In this document: positions 489 through 41,510 of the stretch, in pieces
How positions within the stretch are numbered: position 1 is the stretch's first letter
How the letters are laid out: the number at the start of each line of letters is the position of its first letter
IMG/VR virus record: IMGVR_UViG_3300020419_000030
Location: 1 to 42,058 of that record
DNA from: a virus
Reading direction: 5' to 3' (one strand)
DNA length: 42,058 bases
Program-made: the position numbers and the translations under genes
The notes under the pieces: generated by a model
Told to the model about the DNA's origin: nothing
Database searches by the model: none
The model's input: only the letters and a program-made list of their open reading frames with translations

Positions 489-658
489 TGGCTAAATTAA
501 CTGAAGATCAAATGATTAAAATCATCAGAGCAAACACTATAGAAACTTGTACCGAACAACAGAAAACCCAAATCTATCTTTTTGGTTTTGGTGCAGAGTA
601 CATGAGACAACCTGATGATACGAAAGGTACGTTGCAAACTTATGAGGAGACAGAGTAA
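488..658 (+). CDS. Small early hypothetical protein (56 aa)
   Basis: The ATG at 488 overlaps the previous stop codon (TAATG), and its own TAA overlaps the integrase ATG at 658 in the same way. This tight coupling on both sides is the main evidence that it is real. The product starts MAKLTEDQMIKII and ends TYEETE. It is acidic, with no membrane segment or known motif. No function can be assigned; the position suggests an early or lysogeny-related accessory protein. Confidence 0.7.
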   Translation: MAKLTEDQMIKIIRANTIETCTEQQKTQIYLFGFGAEYMRQPDDTKGTLQTYEETE

Positions 659-1482
659 TGGATACATTTAAGAAATTCTTTATATCATATGCCGATGAAC
701 TTTGGGTTGGTCGGCATAGAGACCAAACCGTAAATAAGCTTATGATGTTTGCTCATTATAAGAGATACGGTGATAAGCTTTTAACTGACTTTACTGCTAC
801 TGAGATAGCTGACTTTCTTTCCTTTATTAAGGAGAATAGAAAGCTATCTGAAAGTACCGTTAATAGGTATAAAGCTGCCATTAAGTCTGTCTTCACTCAT
901 GCTATGGATCTTGAGATTATAACCCAAGCTCCTAAGATTAAAATGAAGACTGAAAATACCGGAAGACCTAGGTCATTCACTGATGATGAATTACTTCAGA
1001 TTAAGTCATTTTTTGATAGATCTAAGGAGCCTCGTATAAGCCTTTTAGTGACACTTTCAGAACAAACTGGAATGAGATTGGGTGAGATACAAGAGATAGG
1101 CTCCACGGCTCTTATTTCGCCTTGTAAACAGTGGTTAAAGCTGAAGAATACCAAGAACGGTGACGACAGAGATATTGCCCTGACAGACGTGACTAGAGAC
1201 TGTGTTGAAAAGGTTGGAGTTGTTAAAGATTGGTTTTCTCATAAAGTCTTTTACCAACTATGGGATGAATGCCGACACCGTGTGGCACGAGGCGACAGAA
1301 ACTTTGTATTCCATGTACTAAGACATACTTGTGCATCTAAGTTAGCTAATCAATTTCAAGTTAATACTCTAGTGATTGCCGATATGTTGGGTCATCGTTC
1401 CATTAAAACTACTCAGAAGTATGTTCATGTGAATAGCGAGACCAAAAAGTCTGTTGCAGAGTTAATGAGTAAAGGAGCTTAG
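658..1482 (+). CDS. int: Tyrosine recombinase / phage integrase
   Basis: A 274-aa site-specific recombinase expected to catalyse attP x attB integration. The N-terminal part (about 1-95) looks like a SAM-like core-binding domain (LSESTVNRYKAAIKSVFTHA). The catalytic domain keeps the full set: R140 in TGMRLGEI, lysine in the beta-hairpin near 163-166 (LKNTKNGDDRDIAL), H219 and R222 in HVLRHT, H246 in MLGHRSIKTTQ, and the nucleophile Y255 in QKYVH. Length is normal for a compact phage integrase and nothing is missing, so it is probably active. Its likely substrate is the tRNA-Tyr-derived site at 41096-41139. If the genome is circular before integration, int and attP are only about 1.6 kb apart. 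Confidence 0.96.
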   Translation: MDTFKKFFISYADELWVGRHRDQTVNKLMMFAHYKRYGDKLLTDFTATEIADFLSFIKENRKLSESTVNRYKAAIKSVFTHAMDLEIITQAPKIKMKTENTGRPRSFTDDELLQIKSFFDRSKEPRISLLVTLSEQTGMRLGEIQEIGSTALISPCKQWLKLKNTKNGDDRDIALTDVTRDCVEKVGVVKDWFSHKVFYQLWDECRHRVARGDRNFVFHVLRHTCASKLANQFQVNTLVIADMLGHRSIKTTQKYVHVNSETKKSVAELMSKGA

Positions 1483-1792: not shown

Positions 1793-2005
1793 ATGATAAT
1801 CAATATCAAAAACATTGGACGACCTAAGAAGAGTTATGATTTAATATCTAAGAAAGTCTTTTTAGAAAGAAAAGTGTGGGAAGATTTAAGTCTTCTTGCC
1901 CATAAGCACTCCAAACTCTCATCAAGACAAGTCAGTATGGCGAGTTTAATTCGCATTGCAGTAGACGGATTATTGTCTACCTACAACAGTGGAAGGAGTG
2001 CATAG
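1793..2005 (+). CDS. Small ribbon-helix-helix-like DNA-binding protein (70 aa)
   Basis: The ATG at 1793 is chosen over an upstream in-frame ATG at 1760 because GGAGATA lies just upstream and the previous gene stops at 1790. The core, KVFLERKVWEDLSLLAHKHSK followed by SMASLIRIAVDGLL, has the strand-helix-helix layout of CopG/Arc/MetJ-type repressors: a beta strand with alternating polar residues, then two helices, the second beginning with serine and ending in an aliphatic run. Such proteins bind operators as dimers. Its place between integrase and the RNA polymerase makes it a candidate lysogeny or early-gene regulator. The fold is inferred from pattern only. Confidence 0.65.
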   Translation: MIINIKNIGRPKKSYDLISKKVFLERKVWEDLSLLAHKHSKLSSRQVSMASLIRIAVDGLLSTYNSGRSA

Positions 2006-2007
2006 CA

Positions 2008-2601
2008 ATGAATAATATTAAACAAGTGATGTTCACTAATAGCAAATCATCAAACAAAGATGTCCGTGAGCAATTTGCAAAGATAGCTACGGATGGAAAC
2101 TCTTGCAAAGTATTTAACTTTGACGACATTATTCGTAAACCTGAGAAGAAAACTATTAATGAGATGCATGATTATCTGATAACTCAGTTGACACTTAAGA
2201 ATGCCGACATGGAGCTTGAGGTTTACAAAGCTCGTCAGGAAAGAAGGACGAATAAGCTGCAGAGATACTTCAACTCAGGTGACAAAAGGTATTACTTTGC
2301 TCGGTTAATGGTAAAGGCAAAAGGAACAGACCGTTTCTACACAATAAAGGATATTGTAAACTCTCTTTACACAAATCGTCAGACAGTAGTGACCATTATC
2401 AAGGAAACTCATGCAGAAGGTTGGATTGACATTGTTAAACACAAGAACCGTACCATGTGTAGAGCATCTGACGTATTGTGGGAGGCTCATAGAGAGTACT
2501 CCATATGGAGAAAGGCACTGTCTCAGAAATTAACAGTTCCATCTATGTTAAAGTTAGTTCAATTTGAGGATTTAATGTCAAATGAATTGACAGAAGATTA
2601 G
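2008..2601 (+). CDS. Winged-helix-like early regulator (197 aa)
   Basis: It starts three bases after the preceding stop, with GGAG upstream. The central part (about 105-155: RFYTIKDIVNSLYTNRQTVV, then a helix ending EGWIDIVKHKNRT) reads like a winged helix-turn-helix: a sensing helix, a recognition helix starting TNRQTV, then a two-strand wing. The N-terminal 100 residues are charged and helical, perhaps for dimerisation. It is the last gene before the polymerase promoter and inverted repeat at 2635-2701, so that repeat could be its operator. Repressor, activator or replication-initiation functions are all possible. Confidence 0.65.
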   Translation: MNNIKQVMFTNSKSSNKDVREQFAKIATDGNSCKVFNFDDIIRKPEKKTINEMHDYLITQLTLKNADMELEVYKARQERRTNKLQRYFNSGDKRYYFARLMVKAKGTDRFYTIKDIVNSLYTNRQTVVTIIKETHAEGWIDIVKHKNRTMCRASDVLWEAHREYSIWRKALSQKLTVPSMLKLVQFEDLMSNELTED

Positions 2602-2634
2602 AGGTATCTGTCAACTTTACACCCCTTATGAAAC

Positions 2635-2701
2635 ACTCCCTAATTTAGTATAAAGAACTTGTGTCCACCCTTTAGAGAACTGGGTGATAAAATTAGGGAG
2701 T
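2635..2701 (+). promoter_or_regulatory. Nested inverted repeats enclosing the promoter and covering the RNA polymerase RBS
   Basis: A perfect 12-bp inverted repeat has its left arm at 2635-2646 (ACTCCCTAATTT) and right arm at 2690-2701 (AAATTAGGGAGT). The right arm contains AGGGAG (2695-2700), the ribosome binding site for the TTG start at 2708. Inside it, CACCC (2666-2670) can pair with GGGTG (2682-2686). The phage promoter lies between the arms, so transcripts entering from upstream carry both arms while transcripts starting near 2675 lack the left arm and CACCC. This would hide the RBS only in read-through RNA. It could instead be a protein operator. Confidence 0.7.
2657..2677 (+). promoter_or_regulatory. 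Phage RNA polymerase promoter P1 (upstream of the RNA polymerase gene)
   Basis: It holds the 14-base core ACTTGTGTCCACCC shared by five intergenic sites, followed by TTTAGAGAA. The G at 2675 is the invariant G of the set and a reasonable +1 by analogy with T7 promoters. Position directly before the polymerase gene implies autogenous amplification. Confidence 0.8.
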
Positions 2702-2707
2702 AGCATT

Positions 2708-5176
2708 TTGAACATACTAAATGAATTAACTCGTGAGAGACAGATGGTGACCGAAGGTCGTGATAGGTTTCTTAAGAGACAAGAGAAATTAACCACTACA
2801 ACTTCTATACAAAATAACCCTCAGAAACTTATGTCTGAGGTTCAAGAGCTTGTAGCTGAGGAATTAAAGAAAACTATAGATAGCCAAAGTAAACTTAAGG
2901 GAAGAGCATTCTCTTGGTATCAGGACTTGAAGGAAGTTGATGTCGATATAATCGCTTACTCAGGTCTTACGACTATGTTTGATTCTGTAGGTAGGTCTAT
3001 GACACTGACAAGAACTATCACGGCAGTTGGACATAAAGTTGAGATGGAGATCTTTAGAGCAAGGCTTAAAGAATATAATAGTCGTCTAGCTAAGAGGATT
3101 GAGGAGAAGGTTGTTAAAGACCACTCTAGTGATCGTTATCGAGTTAAAGCTGCTCGGTCTATAGCCTTCAAAAGTGGATTTAAGATAGATAAATGGGAAG
3201 ATAAGAGGAAGGTTATTGTCGGCACACCTATCGTGAATGCAATTCTTAAGGTGTCTAACATCTTCGACATTTGGGAAGACACTCGGAAGAATAAAACAGT
3301 GAGGAAGATAGGGATTTTACCTGAGGCAAGTGACCGTCTAGCAGACTTAGACTTTGAGGCATCTTGGAGAGAGCCAATGTTTGCTCCTATGATCGTTGAG
3401 CCTAAGGGATGGGATACCTTTGATAGTGGTTGCTATATGGATCAGGCATTAGCAGAACAAGTGAAGTTAGTTAAGGGATATGTATCGCCTCAACATCGTA
3501 AAGCTATTGAAAGAGGGTTTAGGAACGATACGATAAGACCGGCTATAGATGCCATTAATGCAGTTCAAAGAACTAAGTTAAAGCTTAACCCTATCATTGT
3601 AGAGGCAGTTGAGTGGTGTTGGTCTGAGGATAAGGAGATACATAACTTTCCTTTGAAAAACCACCTTAAATACCCACCTAAAGTAGACAACTTCGATGAG
3701 CTGAACGATGATCAGAAGAAGGGTCTTAGGATTAGAAACAGAAAGATTACGATTAAAAACAGAGAGATCGATGGCACAAGAGCCGTAATGCTCCAAGATC
3801 TGAAAGTTGCTAAAGACTTAATGCAATACGAAAACTTCTACCTTCCTCATAACTTTGATCACCGAGGAAGGATATATCCAATACCTCACTTTTGCCACCA
3901 TAGGGATGATCATATTAGAGCTATGTTTGAGCTAGGTGAATCAAAACCAGTAGACCAAGAGAGCTTTTATTGGATCGCCATTCAAGTTGCAAACACCGGA
4001 GACTTCGACAAGGTTTCCAAGAAATCTCTTAAAGAAAGAGTAGACTGGGTTCTTGAGAATGACACGAAGATCATTGAGACTGGGTTAGACTACAAGAAGT
4101 CTTTTGAGTTTTGGTCTAAGGCTGATAAACCCTTTGCATTCTTAGCTGCTTGTGTTGCCTATACAAAATACCTTGTAGAAGGTGAAGGTAGTTTATCAGG
4201 GTTACCTATTAATCTAGATGGATCTAACAGTGGAATACAACATTACTCAGCGTCATCACTTCAAGAGGGTGACGGAGCTTTAGTAAACTTAATACCCTCA
4301 GATAAACCTCAGGACATTTATCAAGCAGTAGCTGATAAAGTTAAACACTCCTTAGATAGATCAGATGATGCCCTAGCCGAAGACTGGTTAAAGTTTGGTA
4401 TTAGTAGAAAGCTAGTTAAAAGAAATGTAATGACATTCGGATATTCTAGTGAGGTTTATGGTTTTAAAGAGCAAATCATGGAAGACACAATGAAACCTCT
4501 CAGGGATGATGTACTGAGTGGTCGCCTAGAAGAACATCCCTTTGGTGAGGATGAGGGTTTTAAAGCGAGTAACTTTTTAGCAAAGCAAAACTGGAGTGCA
4601 GTCAACCAAGTTATAACCGGAGCCTCTGAGGGAATGAAGTTCTTTAAGACGCTATCTCGGTTATTAGCACATGAAAACAAACACACTAGATGGGTAACTC
4701 CTATGGGGTTTCCGGTTGTCCAGTCTTACACGAAGTTTACCACTAAGGAGATTAAAGTTTATCTTTATGATAGGACTTTGCAGAAGAATGTTAGAACTCA
4801 GATTTCATTAAGAGATAAGCCACTGAGGAAAGTTGATAAGACAAAAAGTGCCTCAGCTATATCACCGAATGTGATCCACTCTATGGATGCCTCACACTTA
4901 CTTAAAACAGTGATAGAGGGTTTATACAATAACATCAGGTCTTTCTTTTTAATTCATGATAGCTTTGCCACAACACCGACAGATACAGCTAAACTTTCAA
5001 AGTTAATAAGAAAAGCCTTTGTAGAAATGTATACAAATTACTGTCTTTACACTGAAGTATTGAAGGAAAATAAAGAACAATTTACAGACATAGATAAAGT
5101 TAAGCTCCCTGAGATCCCATCTAAGGGTGGTCTTGACTTAGAGGCAATCAAGGATAGTCGATACTGTTTCTGCTAA
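2708..5176 (+). CDS. T7-type single-subunit DNA-directed RNA polymerase
   Basis: The product (822 aa from TTG at 2708) transcribes phage middle and late genes from phage-specific promoters. Recognisable sites: D504 in DGSNSGIQH (motif A, T7 D537 region), R567, K571 and Y579 in RKLVKRNVMTFGY (motif B; T7 R627, K631, Y639), and H750-D751 in LIHDSF (motif C; T7 H811-D812). The motif B and C spacing follows T7 with a constant offset of about 60 residues. The end is YCFC rather than T7's FAFA. TTG is preferred because AGGGAG sits 7 nt upstream and the protein then begins MNILNELTRERQ, like T7; GTG at 2684 is the alternative. Its RBS lies in the inverted repeat described separately. Confidence 0.97.
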   Translation: MNILNELTRERQMVTEGRDRFLKRQEKLTTTTSIQNNPQKLMSEVQELVAEELKKTIDSQSKLKGRAFSWYQDLKEVDVDIIAYSGLTTMFDSVGRSMTLTRTITAVGHKVEMEIFRARLKEYNSRLAKRIEEKVVKDHSSDRYRVKAARSIAFKSGFKIDKWEDKRKVIVGTPIVNAILKVSNIFDIWEDTRKNKTVRKIGILPEASDRLADLDFEASWREPMFAPMIVEPKGWDTFDSGCYMDQALAEQVKLVKGYVSPQHRKAIERGFRNDTIRPAIDAINAVQRTKLKLNPIIVEAVEWCWSEDKEIHNFPLKNHLKYPPKVDNFDELNDDQKKGLRIRNRKITIKNREIDGTRAVMLQDLKVAKDLMQYENFYLPHNFDHRGRIYPIPHFCHHRDDHIRAMFELGESKPVDQESFYWIAIQVANTGDFDKVSKKSLKERVDWVLENDTKIIETGLDYKKSFEFWSKADKPFAFLAACVAYTKYLVEGEGSLSGLPINLDGSNSGIQHYSASSLQEGDGALVNLIPSDKPQDIYQAVADKVKHSLDRSDDALAEDWLKFGISRKLVKRNVMTFGYSSEVYGFKEQIMEDTMKPLRDDVLSGRLEEHPFGEDEGFKASNFLAKQNWSAVNQVITGASEGMKFFKTLSRLLAHENKHTRWVTPMGFPVVQSYTKFTTKEIKVYLYDRTLQKNVRTQISLRDKPLRKVDKTKSASAISPNVIHSMDASHLLKTVIEGLYNNIRSFFLIHDSFATTPTDTAKLSKLIRKAFVEMYTNYCLYTEVLKENKEQFTDIDKVKLPEIPSKGGLDLEAIKDSRYCFC

Positions 5177-6539: not shown

Positions 6540-8082
6540 TTGTGGATCTTCAGATGCTAGGAGCATTTATGATGACGGACACACGCACTGTTACTCGTGT
6601 AGTAAAACCACGCAACCCAATATCACGAACTCTCTTATCCACTCTGTTCAGGCAAAGAAAGAAACAGTCAAAAAAGATTTACTCAAGGGCGAAGTTAAAG
6701 CACTTAAACACAGAGGACTAACTGAAGAGACTTGTAGAAAGTTTGGCTACCTAACGACAGAACTGGATTTAGAGTTAGCTTGTTATCGAGATGATAAAGG
6801 TAAGGTCGTTGCTCAGAAGGTTAGAGACTGTAACAAGAATTTTAGTATCACTGGTGATGCCAGTAAAATGACGTTATTCGGTTCCCACCTATGGTCTAAC
6901 GGAAAGAAACTTGTCATATGCGAAGGAGAGATTGATTGTATGACAGTTTCCCAAGTTCAAGGTCATCGGTGGGCAACCGTTAGTATTCCAACCGGTGCAG
7001 CTTCTGCGAAGAACGCCATAAAGAAGAATTGGGATTACATTCTCGGTTTCGATGAATGCATTATCATGTTCGATATGGATGATTCAGGTCAAAAAGCAGC
7101 TCACACTGTCGCAGAGTTGTTACCGGTTGGTTTTGCAAAGATAGCTCGACTACCACATAAAGATCCAAATGAATGCCTTATGAAAGGCAAAGCTGATGAA
7201 ATAATTAACGCTATATTTCAGGCTAGATCATTTAGACCTGATGGCATTGTTGGAGCTAAAGACTTAAAGGATGTTATCACGATTGCTGATGAGCTTAGTG
7301 CCGTCACTTACCCTTACCCAAGGTTAAATGACATAACTAGAGGATTAAGAACTTCTGAGCTTGTCACTGTATGTGCCGGAAGTGGCTTAGGTAAAACAAC
7401 CTTCGTCAGAGAGATTGCCTATCACCTACAACAGAACGGTGAAAGCATCGGCATGATCATGCTTGAGGAAAGTAATAAAAGAACTCTACTCGGTTTAGTA
7501 GGCATTCATATGTCTAAGAATATAACTGTAGATCGATCCAAGGCTACTGATGAGGAAATCGGAGTAGCTTTTGGAGATATATTCGACAAGGGAAAACCTG
7601 AGGTTTATCTATATGATCACTTTGGCTCTTCTGATGTCGATGTCATATGTCAAAGAATACAGTTTATGGCTAAAGCTTTAGGTGTTAAATGGGTCATCCT
7701 AGATCATATATCTATATTGATCTCAGGGTTAGCCAACAACGATGAGCGTAAATTAATCGACATGGCTATGACAAAACTAAGAACCCTTGTCCAAGAGATA
7801 GACATAGGTTTAATCTTAGTGTCTCACCTCAGAAGACCTGAGGGAGATAGAGGTCATGAAGATGGAGCTAAGGTTCGCTTAGGTCAATTAAGAGGATCTC
7901 ATGCTATAGCTCAACTGTCAGATATATGTATCTCACTCGAAGTTGATAAAGAAAACTCCGATGGTGACCAAAGATATATATCAGTTCTTAAAAATAGATT
8001 TACCGGTGAAGTCGGATACTCAGGGTCAATTCAATATAACCGTGACACTGGACGGCTTTTACCTGATGAGAGTTTTGTATGA
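6487..8082 (+). CDS. Bifunctional DNA primase-helicase (T7 gp4-like)
   Basis: The 531-aa product should unwind DNA 5'-3' as a hexamer and make primers. In order: an N-terminal zinc-binding domain (CPDCGSSDARSIYDDGHTHC then YSC), a TOPRIM primase domain (VICEGEIDCMTVSQ and IIMFDMDDSGQKAA), and a RecA-like helicase with Walker A CAGSGLGKTTF and the downstream LDHISIL and LVSHLRRP motifs. ATG 6487 is chosen because AAGGGAG is 5 nt upstream; the in-frame TTG at 6466 has no RBS. Two stretches of this gene, 6883-6899 and 7008-7035, recur joined together in the transglycosylase gene at 20720-20764. Confidence 0.96.
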   Translation: MELIDHKSKEIRKTSCPDCGSSDARSIYDDGHTHCYSCSKTTQPNITNSLIHSVQAKKETVKKDLLKGEVKALKHRGLTEETCRKFGYLTTELDLELACYRDDKGKVVAQKVRDCNKNFSITGDASKMTLFGSHLWSNGKKLVICEGEIDCMTVSQVQGHRWATVSIPTGAASAKNAIKKNWDYILGFDECIIMFDMDDSGQKAAHTVAELLPVGFAKIARLPHKDPNECLMKGKADEIINAIFQARSFRPDGIVGAKDLKDVITIADELSAVTYPYPRLNDITRGLRTSELVTVCAGSGLGKTTFVREIAYHLQQNGESIGMIMLEESNKRTLLGLVGIHMSKNITVDRSKATDEEIGVAFGDIFDKGKPEVYLYDHFGSSDVDVICQRIQFMAKALGVKWVILDHISILISGLANNDERKLIDMAMTKLRTLVQEIDIGLILVSHLRRPEGDRGHEDGAKVRLGQLRGSHAIAQLSDICISLEVDKENSDGDQRYISVLKNRFTGEVGYSGSIQYNRDTGRLLPDESFV

Positions 8083-19789: not shown

Positions 19790-21535
19790 ATGCAACCATA
19801 CGGCTACTTATCAAACTACAATAATGCCGTAACTCCTTCAATATTAGACCTAGTATTACACAATGAAACTGGTCACTTATCCGAACAAGATAGGTGGAAC
19901 GCTAATAAATCAAGATCAAGAAAAGGTGCTGTTGGTGGCTATCAGTTTATGCCTCAGCATCTTCATGACTTAGGTTATAAGTTACCTTCGTATACAATTC
20001 AGGATGTACTCAACCCTAAAAAGGCTAGAAATATAGCCTCAGATTTTATTAAGGGTTACTCAAATCATTATAACTTCGATAACTTAGCTGACACATTGAT
20101 CGGCTATAACTGGGGAGCGAAAAAAACCAGTGACTGGGTTAAGCGTGGAAGAAACTACGATGAACTACCTGAAGAGACTAAACAATACTTAACAAGGGCG
20201 ATGACTTACATCAATAAAAACCCTGATCAATTTAAGTTAACCAATATTGAGAAAGCTCCACCTTCTGAAGAAACAAGCAACCTTGATGAGGCTAACATGG
20301 TTGATAAATTAAATTTTCAAAAGGAACTAGAAAGAGGAAATGCTATGTATAACTTTAACCCCTATCAAATGAACAAAGCTCAAAGAGCAATTGAGGGTAG
20401 CCGTGGTTACAGATCTCCTCGTTGGGAAGACTTCTACTCTGAGGGATATGAGGGATATGCCTCCCCAGTGTTAGAAAACCCTTATGTCAGAGATGGCTAT
20501 GTAGGTCAATTCGATAATAGAGATGCCAGTGCTTATGATGACGGTACGTTTGCATCCCCCTATACTGGAGCATTAAGTTCTATATCAAACGAAGGTGTAT
20601 TGCCTAAGGGTATACTAGAACATCCTGAGGCTGATATGTTTTACAACTTAGATGTATCAAGACAAAATAAAGAAGACGTAAATAACAATACTAATAATAA
20701 CTTTGAATCAGATAACGAATCCCACCTATGGTCTAAGAAGAACGCCATAAAGAAGAATTGGGATAATGAAAACAACGTAACCACTGAAACTACTGGTAAT
20801 AATAATGTAACCAATATACCTAGTCCAAAGTTAATTAACAGAAGAGACCAACAAGATCTCACTAAAGGCGTTAGATACCCTGAAGATATTGACTTAAATG
20901 AAATGCTTATTCGTATCGGAGGAGCCGGTCAGAAAAACGCCCACTTAGGTGGTAACCGTATGCTTTCTGACGCTACAGCTATGTATGGTAATATCATGGA
21001 CTACAACCGTGGTCAGGCTTTAGCTAAATATAAGACAGACATGGCTAGAGTGAAAGCTACTGCTAAACAAACTAGAGAAGATCAAGATTACTTGGGAACT
21101 ATCGAACAGTCACTTGGTGATATGGATCGTGCCTTAGCCGGATTAGATGGGGGTGGTGTTACTGGTCTATGGGATGGTAATGTCGGAAGTTGGATAGATT
21201 CTATTACTGGCAACCCAAAAGAAACAACAAGGTTATTACTTCAGAAACTAAAAGTTGACGACACTCTACTTCGTATTGCTCAGACTAAGGGTGCAATCTC
21301 TAACAAAGAAATGGACTTATTCATGTCTCCAGCACCTAAAGTTGGATTTCATGATGAGGAAGTTTGGAGAAAATGGATTAACCAAAGAAAGAACGCTCTT
21401 ATGAAAATAAGAAGTAGACTTTTAAACAACCAACAAGTGGTTCCAAATGAAAGGGCGACAACTGGACAAGTAAACTCATTTACTGGTGGTGGTAAGACCT
21501 ATGTGGTTCACGGACAAAACGTAACCAAATTATGA
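19790..21535 (+). CDS. Internal virion protein with lytic transglycosylase domain (581 aa)
   Basis: Residues about 15-145 look like an SLT-type lysozyme-like domain: LDLVLHNETGHLSEQDRW holds the likely catalytic Glu, followed by KGAVGGYQFMPQHLHDLGYK and DTLIGYNWGAKKTSDWVKRG. In ejection proteins this domain opens peptidoglycan during DNA entry (T7 gp16 role). The middle (about 160-340) is Asn-rich and disordered; the C-terminal part is helical. Residues 311-325 are SHLWSKKNAIKKNWD, encoded by a 45-nt piece built from two parts of the primase gene. The gene overlaps the next one by 4 nt (ATGA). Confidence 0.82.
   Translation: MQPYGYLSNYNNAVTPSILDLVLHNETGHLSEQDRWNANKSRSRKGAVGGYQFMPQHLHDLGYKLPSYTIQDVLNPKKARNIASDFIKGYSNHYNFDNLADTLIGYNWGAKKTSDWVKRGRNYDELPEETKQYLTRAMTYINKNPDQFKLTNIEKAPPSEETSNLDEANMVDKLNFQKELERGNAMYNFNPYQMNKAQRAIEGSRGYRSPRWEDFYSEGYEGYASPVLENPYVRDGYVGQFDNRDASAYDDGTFASPYTGALSSISNEGVLPKGILEHPEADMFYNLDVSRQNKEDVNNNTNNNFESDNESHLWSKKNAIKKNWDNENNVTTETTGNNNVTNIPSPKLINRRDQQDLTKGVRYPEDIDLNEMLIRIGGAGQKNAHLGGNRMLSDATAMYGNIMDYNRGQALAKYKTDMARVKATAKQTREDQDYLGTIEQSLGDMDRALAGLDGGGVTGLWDGNVGSWIDSITGNPKETTRLLLQKLKVDDTLLRIAQTKGAISNKEMDLFMSPAPKVGFHDEEVWRKWINQRKNALMKIRSRLLNNQQVVPNERATTGQVNSFTGGGKTYVVHGQNVTKL
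20720..20764 (+). repeat. Primase-gene-derived 45-nt mosaic inside the transglycosylase gene
   Basis: Bases 20720-20736 are identical to 6883-6899 of the primase-helicase gene, and bases 20737-20764 are identical to 7008-7035. The two blocks are 17 and 28 nt, contiguous here but separated by 108 nt in the primase gene. Both copies use the same reading frame, so the same peptides (SHLWS and KNAIKKNWD) are encoded. The insertion sits in an Asn-rich linker where it would be tolerated. Confidence 0.9.
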
Positions 21536-41027: not shown

Positions 41028-41095
41028 ACTTAGGTCTTGCAATTTGTGAATTAATGATTAATTTAATAAGTGTGAACTGCTTTTTATGGTTAACA

Positions 41096-41139
41096 ACAGA
41101 TTTACAGTCTGCTGCCTTTAACCACTCGGCCACCCCACC
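41096..41139 (-). tRNA. 5' half of tRNA-Tyr (anticodon GUA), truncated; probable attP core
   Basis: Read on the minus strand, the sequence starts with acceptor GGTGGGG, then TG, D-arm GCCGAGTGGTTAAAGGC, and anticodon arm GCAGA-CTGTAAA-TCTGT with GTA at 41105-41103. This is the 5' part of a class II tRNA-Tyr. After the anticodon arm no T-arm or matching acceptor strand exists, so it is not a functional tRNA. A tRNA fragment in a phage with an intact tyrosine integrase is the classic mark of attP. Recombination would restore a complete host tRNA-Tyr using the phage copy of the 5' half. Confidence 0.85.
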
Positions 41140-41207: not shown

Positions 41208-41228
41208 ACTTGTGTCCACCCATTAGAA
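41208..41228 (+). promoter_or_regulatory. Phage RNA polymerase promoter P5 (right-end early genes)
   Basis: The core ACTTGTGTCCACCC is followed by ATTAGAAGA; the presumed +1 is G41226. The upstream GTGG makes a local palindrome, GTGGAC-TTGT-GTCCAC (41204-41219), unlike the other copies. The RBS (GAGGAG) of the 89-aa gene begins about 3-4 nt after the +1, so the leader is very short. Confidence 0.78.
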
Positions 41229-41240
41229 GAGGAGAACAAA

Positions 41241-41510
41241 ATGAAGAAGAATGGTTATCAGAATTTGGAAAGAACTATGAAAGGTGCTTTTCAACATAAG
41301 GAAACTGGTGTTTCTGCATTAATCAAAAAATTCACTGGTGTTGCTAAGATACAAGTATGCCATGCAGACGGTACTCATTGGGATACTGTTTACTGCAACA
41401 ATCTTGGTTACAACGTGCATGGGATCATGCTTGGGATGATTAAATGTTGCAATGATGGAAAATCCAAATATGCACCACAATTTGACGACAACAAAAGATA
41501 TTGGAGATAA
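41241..41510 (+). CDS. Early hypothetical protein (89 aa)
   Basis: First gene after promoter P5, with AGAGGAG as the RBS. The product starts MKKNGYQNLERTMKGAFQHK and contains AKIQVCHADGTHWDTVYCNN and MIKCCNDGKSKYAP; four cysteines are present, but no standard zinc pattern. The position resembles that of small host-takeover proteins at T7-like genome ends. Unrecognised. Confidence 0.7.
   Translation: MKKNGYQNLERTMKGAFQHKETGVSALIKKFTGVAKIQVCHADGTHWDTVYCNNLGYNVHGIMLGMIKCCNDGKSKYAPQFDDNKRYWR

Follow-up and report, generated by a model that had tools for sequence, protein, structure and literature searches.

How does a temperate T7-like phage keep a strong, self-amplifying RNA polymerase silent? 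The question is raised by a 42,058-nt stretch of DNA (the window), an entire IMG/VR virus record of a T7-like phage, in which the two arms of an inverted repeat flank the phage promoter of the polymerase gene and one arm covers the ribosome-binding site (RBS) of that gene. The preliminary description of this locus proposed that the RBS is hidden only in transcripts arriving from upstream. The present analysis bears on that proposal, and the features concerned are collected in Table 1.

The polymerase locus and its promoter

The virus is a marine one of bacteria and is probably able to lie dormant. Known phages such as Bordetella phage BB8, LUZ100, and pelagiphage HTVC031P encode polymerases that share only ca. 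30% identity with its own. Metagenomic relatives were found from 99.6% DNA identity (L002) downward; L002, being near-identical to the window, is uninformative on conservation.

Table 1. Features of the polymerase locus of the window, in order of position.
Feature	Position	Strand	Basis and remarks
Tyrosine integrase	658..1482	+	PF00589 (2.7e-17), phrog_1; marks a temperate lifestyle
MarR-like winged-helix regulator	2008..2601	+	MarR_2 profile, AlphaFold, PDB fold matches; directly 5' of the polymerase region
Outer left arm (anti-RBS), ACTCCCTAATTT	2635..2646	+	5' of the phage promoter start site; predicted RBS opening energy falls from ca. 10 to 1.7 kcal/mol when the arm is removed
Phage promoter, ACTTGTGTCCACCCTTTAGAGAA	2657..2679	+	First of five copies; repetition and conserved positions; putative start site A2674/G2675
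Inner left arm, CACCC	2666..2670	+	Part of the promoter box; pairing not beyond chance
Inner right arm, GGGTG	2682..2686	+	Present in most L126-clade members; missing from L133, L294, and L134
Outer right arm, AAATTAGGGAGT	2690..2701	+	Covers the RBS AGGGAG
Shine-Dalgarno AGGGAG of the polymerase gene	2695..2700	+	Sequence; 7 nt before TTG 2708
T7-like single-subunit RNA polymerase	2708..5176	+	PF00940 (3.8e-92); start TTG 2708, by relatives

The start of the polymerase gene was placed at TTG 2708 because relatives align and begin there, several of them with an in-frame stop just upstream. GTG 2684, which had been entertained as the real start, was ruled out by the alignment of relatives. Regarding the regulator gene, the MarR_2 profile matched 10 of the 11 members of its family (best 4.7e-5); the AlphaFold model was a winged helix (pLDDT 79), and the PDB folds that matched it best were those of two MarR-family proteins, NadR and PefR. 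An inverted repeat, TTGACAGA-N12-TCTGTCAA, is located at the end of this gene (2587-2614) and is either a possible operator or a chance occurrence.

The box ACTTGTGTCCACCC occurs five times in the window, always in the forward orientation (2657, 5177, 15033, 41007, and 41208), compared to 0.18 copies expected (at most 2 mismatches). Relatives carry the same box 5' of the polymerase gene, just 3' of it, and ca. 9 kb further on. Judged by its repetition and position, the box is a real phage promoter, and its placement between the left and right arms, as originally described, was upheld by the five copies and by the positions conserved in relatives. By T7-family geometry, phage transcripts would begin at A2674 or G2675. 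A start four bases past CCACC gave leaders of 21-45 nt in the window and 26 relatives, and the start base was a purine in nearly all of them. With such a start, CACCC and everything upstream of it should therefore be missing from phage-made RNA; the earlier statement that RNA started at G2675 lacks both left arms is consistent with this putative start, which falls 3' of both. When the 14-base promoter box was used as a search probe, it mostly returned chance matches, but one match led to L037.

A scan for host promoters yielded promoter-like sites that were no more numerous than in shuffles. No intrinsic terminator was found between 400 and 2800, and Rfam gave no credible family match in 2001-3000. 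An attachment site at the repeat was considered and rejected, as there was no tRNA match in 2001-3000; a tRNA-like stretch, which scored 29.8 bits against Rfam tRNA and was not called as a tRNA by ARAGORN, is instead located at 41068-41139 on the minus strand, flanked by the phage promoters at 41007 and 41208, and is a candidate attachment site. An invertible promoter was also set aside: the copy in L002 and all relatives have a single orientation, and 43 bp would be very short. Elsewhere in the window, a 33-nt repeat (94% identical) is present at 7003-7035, in the primase-helicase ORF, and at 20732-20764, in ORF 19790-21535; both copies are coding.

Predicted masking of the ribosome-binding site

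The outer arms form a perfect 12-bp inverted repeat with 43 nt separating them, and the right arm covers AGGGAG exactly as first reported. No other perfect repeat of at least 11 bp (loop at most 80) was present in the 42-kb window. Shuffled genomes contained a mean of 0.3 perfect repeats of at least 12 bp, and shuffling of the intergenic stretch produced one of at least 12 bp in 12 of 20,000 trials. The repeat is unusual at its spot; somewhere in a genome, chance could yield one. Fold z-scores were -3.3 for 2635-2701, -2.9 for 2630-2710, and -0.6 for 2602-2720. The 119-nt stretch 2602-2720, whose folding was proposed at the outset as a check, was as a whole not unusually stable; the hairpin itself was.

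The predicted cost of opening the RBS was 10.1 kcal/mol for RNA from 2602, 1.7 kcal/mol for RNA from 2647, and 2.8 kcal/mol for RNA from 2674, and the predicted gap between the long and the promoter RNA held at 25 and 15° C. In the longer transcript, the RBS is predicted to sit in a stable helix. The proposed masking in read-through RNA and open RBS in promoter RNA were both reproduced by these predictions (ca. 10 vs. 1-3 kcal/mol). Among genes of the window and its relatives, none of the 97 controls reached the predicted opening energy of this RBS, about 10 kcal/mol (10.3); the 99th percentile of the controls was 7.8.

RNA from 2647, in which the outer arm is gone and the inner pair retained, had lost the masking; in the model, the outer arm by itself gives the effect, and the inner pair adds nothing. 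The nested CACCC/GGGTG pair exists as described, but the role assigned to it was not supported: its left half is plain promoter sequence, and its pairing was no greater than in shuffled leaders (combined p = 0.30); polymerase leaders are simply G-rich. At the phage promoters other than that of the polymerase (P2/P3), there was mostly no masking effect. A marked one was seen only at the 41208 copy, before ORF 41241-41510, where RBS masking was 5.0 kcal/mol in the long RNA vs. 0.6 kcal/mol (p = 0.04; 41208-41256).

A six-codon ORF (ATG AAA CAC TCC CTA ATT TAG, 2628-2648) spans the left arm, and a ribosome translating it could open the hairpin. This ORF is without a Shine-Dalgarno sequence, and neither L295 nor L145 showed a counterpart. 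The left-arm region and polymerase codons 3-5 also share a 9-bp complementarity (ATTTAGTAT, 2643-2651, and ATACTAAAT, 2714-2722).

Anti-RBS arms among the relatives

In the tree, the sister group of the window consists of L134 and the L126 clade, and L295 lies outside those. The sister clade (L126, L129-L134, L290-L307; polymerase 64-69% identical) has kept the promoter and, in most members, the regulator gene; it is without the outer arm, and its RBS is open. The next-nearest relative, L295, has arms CACTACTTTTC/GGGGAGTAGTG over its own RBS. In a neighbouring clade, most members have an arm of their own, and the sequences differ, yet each pairs with the RBS. Arms over the RBS were found in L145 (ATCGCTCC/GGAGTGAT), L136 (ATCCCCT/AGGGGAT), L127 (TCTCCT/AGGAGA), L142 (CTCTTCT/AGAGGAG), L354 (9 bp, AACACACTC/GAGTGTGTT), L356 (10 bp, CCCCCTGAAT/GTTCAGGGGG), and L358 (12 bp with G-U pairs, TTCTTCCTGAAT/GTTCAGGGAGAG). 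Between L356 and L358, one RBS pair is changed from C-G to U-A, a compensatory change in a promoter-to-RBS sequence that is otherwise nearly identical. The arm was lost in L357, and no near arm was found in L128 or L343. Conservation of the pairing is thus partial: the sister clade has no outer arm, L295 and the majority of the neighbouring clade have pairing arms of changed sequence, and one compensatory change was seen.

A search for window-like arms together with the promoter returned only L002 and L295; the four other matches lay in unrelated DNA that had neither a polymerase nor an integrase match. When the arm was treated as a trait on the tree, with the labels being our own assignment, 5 changes were required, compared to 9.3 for shuffled labels. 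The simplest history would be one gain before the 20-row clade, followed by several losses. In L037/L128, AACACTCC is complementary over 8 bp to GGAGTGTT, which covers the RBS, but is located ca. 150 nt from the RBS, too distant for inclusion in the tests described below.

For the shuffle test, only the sequence 5' of the promoter was shuffled, and the p-values of the groups were combined. We placed the RBS and start sites by visual inspection and devised the family tests only after the data had been seen. The combined p was 0.0038 for 14 groups with 60 nt upstream; the addition of six groups (70 nt upstream; 20 groups in all) brought it to 0.0013, or 0.0034 without the window. The clade of L142, L136, L354, L356, L128, L127, and L145 alone gave p = 0.00026, compared to 0.54 for the sister clade. 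Control genes were calibrated in this test (6% below 0.1). Across 14 relative groups, masking of polymerase genes in the long RNA exceeded that of control genes (p = 0.0016). A stricter test requiring an ungapped helix gave p = 0.013, and p = 0.13 over the 13 groups without the window. T7-like phages at large had no masking trend, and those bearing an integrase were not enriched over those free of one; masking as a general feature of integrase-bearing T7-like phages was accordingly rejected. These comparisons are fair evidence that masking is a trait of part of the window's lineage, not of the family as a whole.

Competing explanations and known systems

We lean slightly toward a translational switch that acts on the phage RNA polymerase gene and depends on where transcription starts. 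Host polymerase would transcribe from upstream, through the integrase and regulator genes, and its RNA would include the arm at 2635-2646. That arm would pair with 2690-2701 and hide the RBS, and little polymerase would therefore be made. The phage polymerase would start RNA at ca. 2674, without the left arm; because that arm is absent, the RBS would be open, and the first polymerase molecules would give rise to a freely translated message for more polymerase. The outer stem likely lowers the translation of read-through RNA in vivo; that the arrangement was selected as a switch has an even chance or a shade better. The analysis established the sequence layout, the promoter family, the start codon, the predicted energies, and the recurrence in relatives of anti-RBS arms of differing sequence, with one compensatory change; the transcription start, the actual folding, the effect on translation, the threshold, the feedback, and the role in lysogeny are what we infer.

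A repeat that arose by chance between genes, in AT-rich sequence beside a G-rich RBS and a C-rich promoter, would account for the absence of the outer arm in the sister clade. It would also fit the rate at which perfect 12-bp repeats are expected per genome (0.3) and the masking conferred by the C-rich flank even in shuffles (null mean, 6.1 kcal/mol). However, only 12 of the 20,000 shuffles at this spot yielded such a repeat, and the RBS is more masked than those of 97/97 control genes; the arms also recur in relatives, with a compensatory change. Chance is a possible but unlikely explanation. An RNase III site precedes the T7 polymerase gene, and a 12-bp stem with a 4-5-bp stem comes close in size to the RNAs that RNase III cuts. 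The hairpin might be such a processing site, or another element of RNA stability, with RBS masking as a by-product, but the stem is 6-10 bp in most relatives, short for the enzyme, and cutting within the right arm would harm the RBS; we consider this very improbable.

The arms could instead be DNA operators, bound by the MarR-like protein at sites flanking the phage promoter for repression in the lysogen. The gene for that protein is directly upstream, the arms sit on either side of the promoter, and for Pasto and LUZ100 it has been hypothesized that MarR binds sites flanking the pre-polymerase promoter (PMC10134795). However, neither arm is palindromic, and the window holds no other close copy (best, 2 mismatches); sites within 3 mismatches numbered 47, compared to 61 expected. 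No such repeat is found in relatives with homologous regulators, and the arms of other relatives have no sequence in common, yet in every case they pair with the RBS, with G-U pairs among the contacts. In sequence, the arms do not look like MarR sites, and the operator explanation is improbable, although MarR repression could act jointly with the RNA lock.

The polymerase gene is homologous to T7 gene 1, whose first transcripts are likewise made by host polymerase. T7 itself is strictly lytic, and its gene 1 is not immediately preceded by a phage promoter. The arrangement in LUZ100 and Pasto is closer, with an integrase gene and a MarR-like gene upstream and a phage promoter (phi1) directly 5' of the polymerase gene (PMC10134795). 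In LUZ100, that promoter was mapped by ONT-cappable-seq, read-through followed by positive feedback was proposed at the level of transcription only, and the authors ask how the polymerase first gets activated (PMC10134795). Their model is transcriptional, and the text makes no mention of RBS masking (the words "hairpin" and "ribosome" are absent) (PMC10134795). In LUZ100, the one case backed by an isolate, CTCTCTGA, located ca. 35-40 nt upstream of the phi1 start, pairs over 8 bp with TCAGAGAG, which covers the RBS (masking p of ca. 0.007 when 100 nt of upstream sequence was included; a single case, found after the hypothesis).

The preliminary description knew of no described case with this arrangement; phage T4 provides several. 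RBS-masking hairpins are formed only in the early transcripts of T4 genes e, soc, 49, I-TevI, and segB and of Aeh1 mobE (PMC3014915, PMC2988022), and the effect in gene e is about 100-fold (PMC3014915). As in the gene e type, upstream RNA of the window would fold an anti-RBS stem, and RNA from the gene's own promoter would be without the 5' strand and be translated (PMC3014915, PMC2988022). The T4 late promoter depends on late factors of T4, and transcription from it is not driven by the product of the gene it serves. In the window, unlike in T4, the product is a polymerase that would use the inner promoter, and the positive loop would therefore close. The sequences are unrelated, the window belongs to a T7-like phage, and its masking is a predicted one. 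In the literature, no description was found of an RBS lock on a polymerase that transcribes its own gene, and a T4-type lock on a polymerase that amplifies itself, in temperate T7-like phages, would seem to be new.

We advance only tentatively, at somewhat less than an even chance, the generalization that some temperate T7-like phages lock the polymerase RBS in every host-made transcript and leave only self-made transcripts unlocked. If it is true, a translational gate would be set on an autocatalytic transcription loop, with a threshold for leaving lysogeny, and the arm sequences would evolve quickly yet keep tracking the RBS. Such a lock would be a simple answer to how temperate T7-like phages silence a strong, self-amplifying polymerase, and it would also explain the RBS-complementary sequence that lies between the regulator and polymerase genes in some of these phages.
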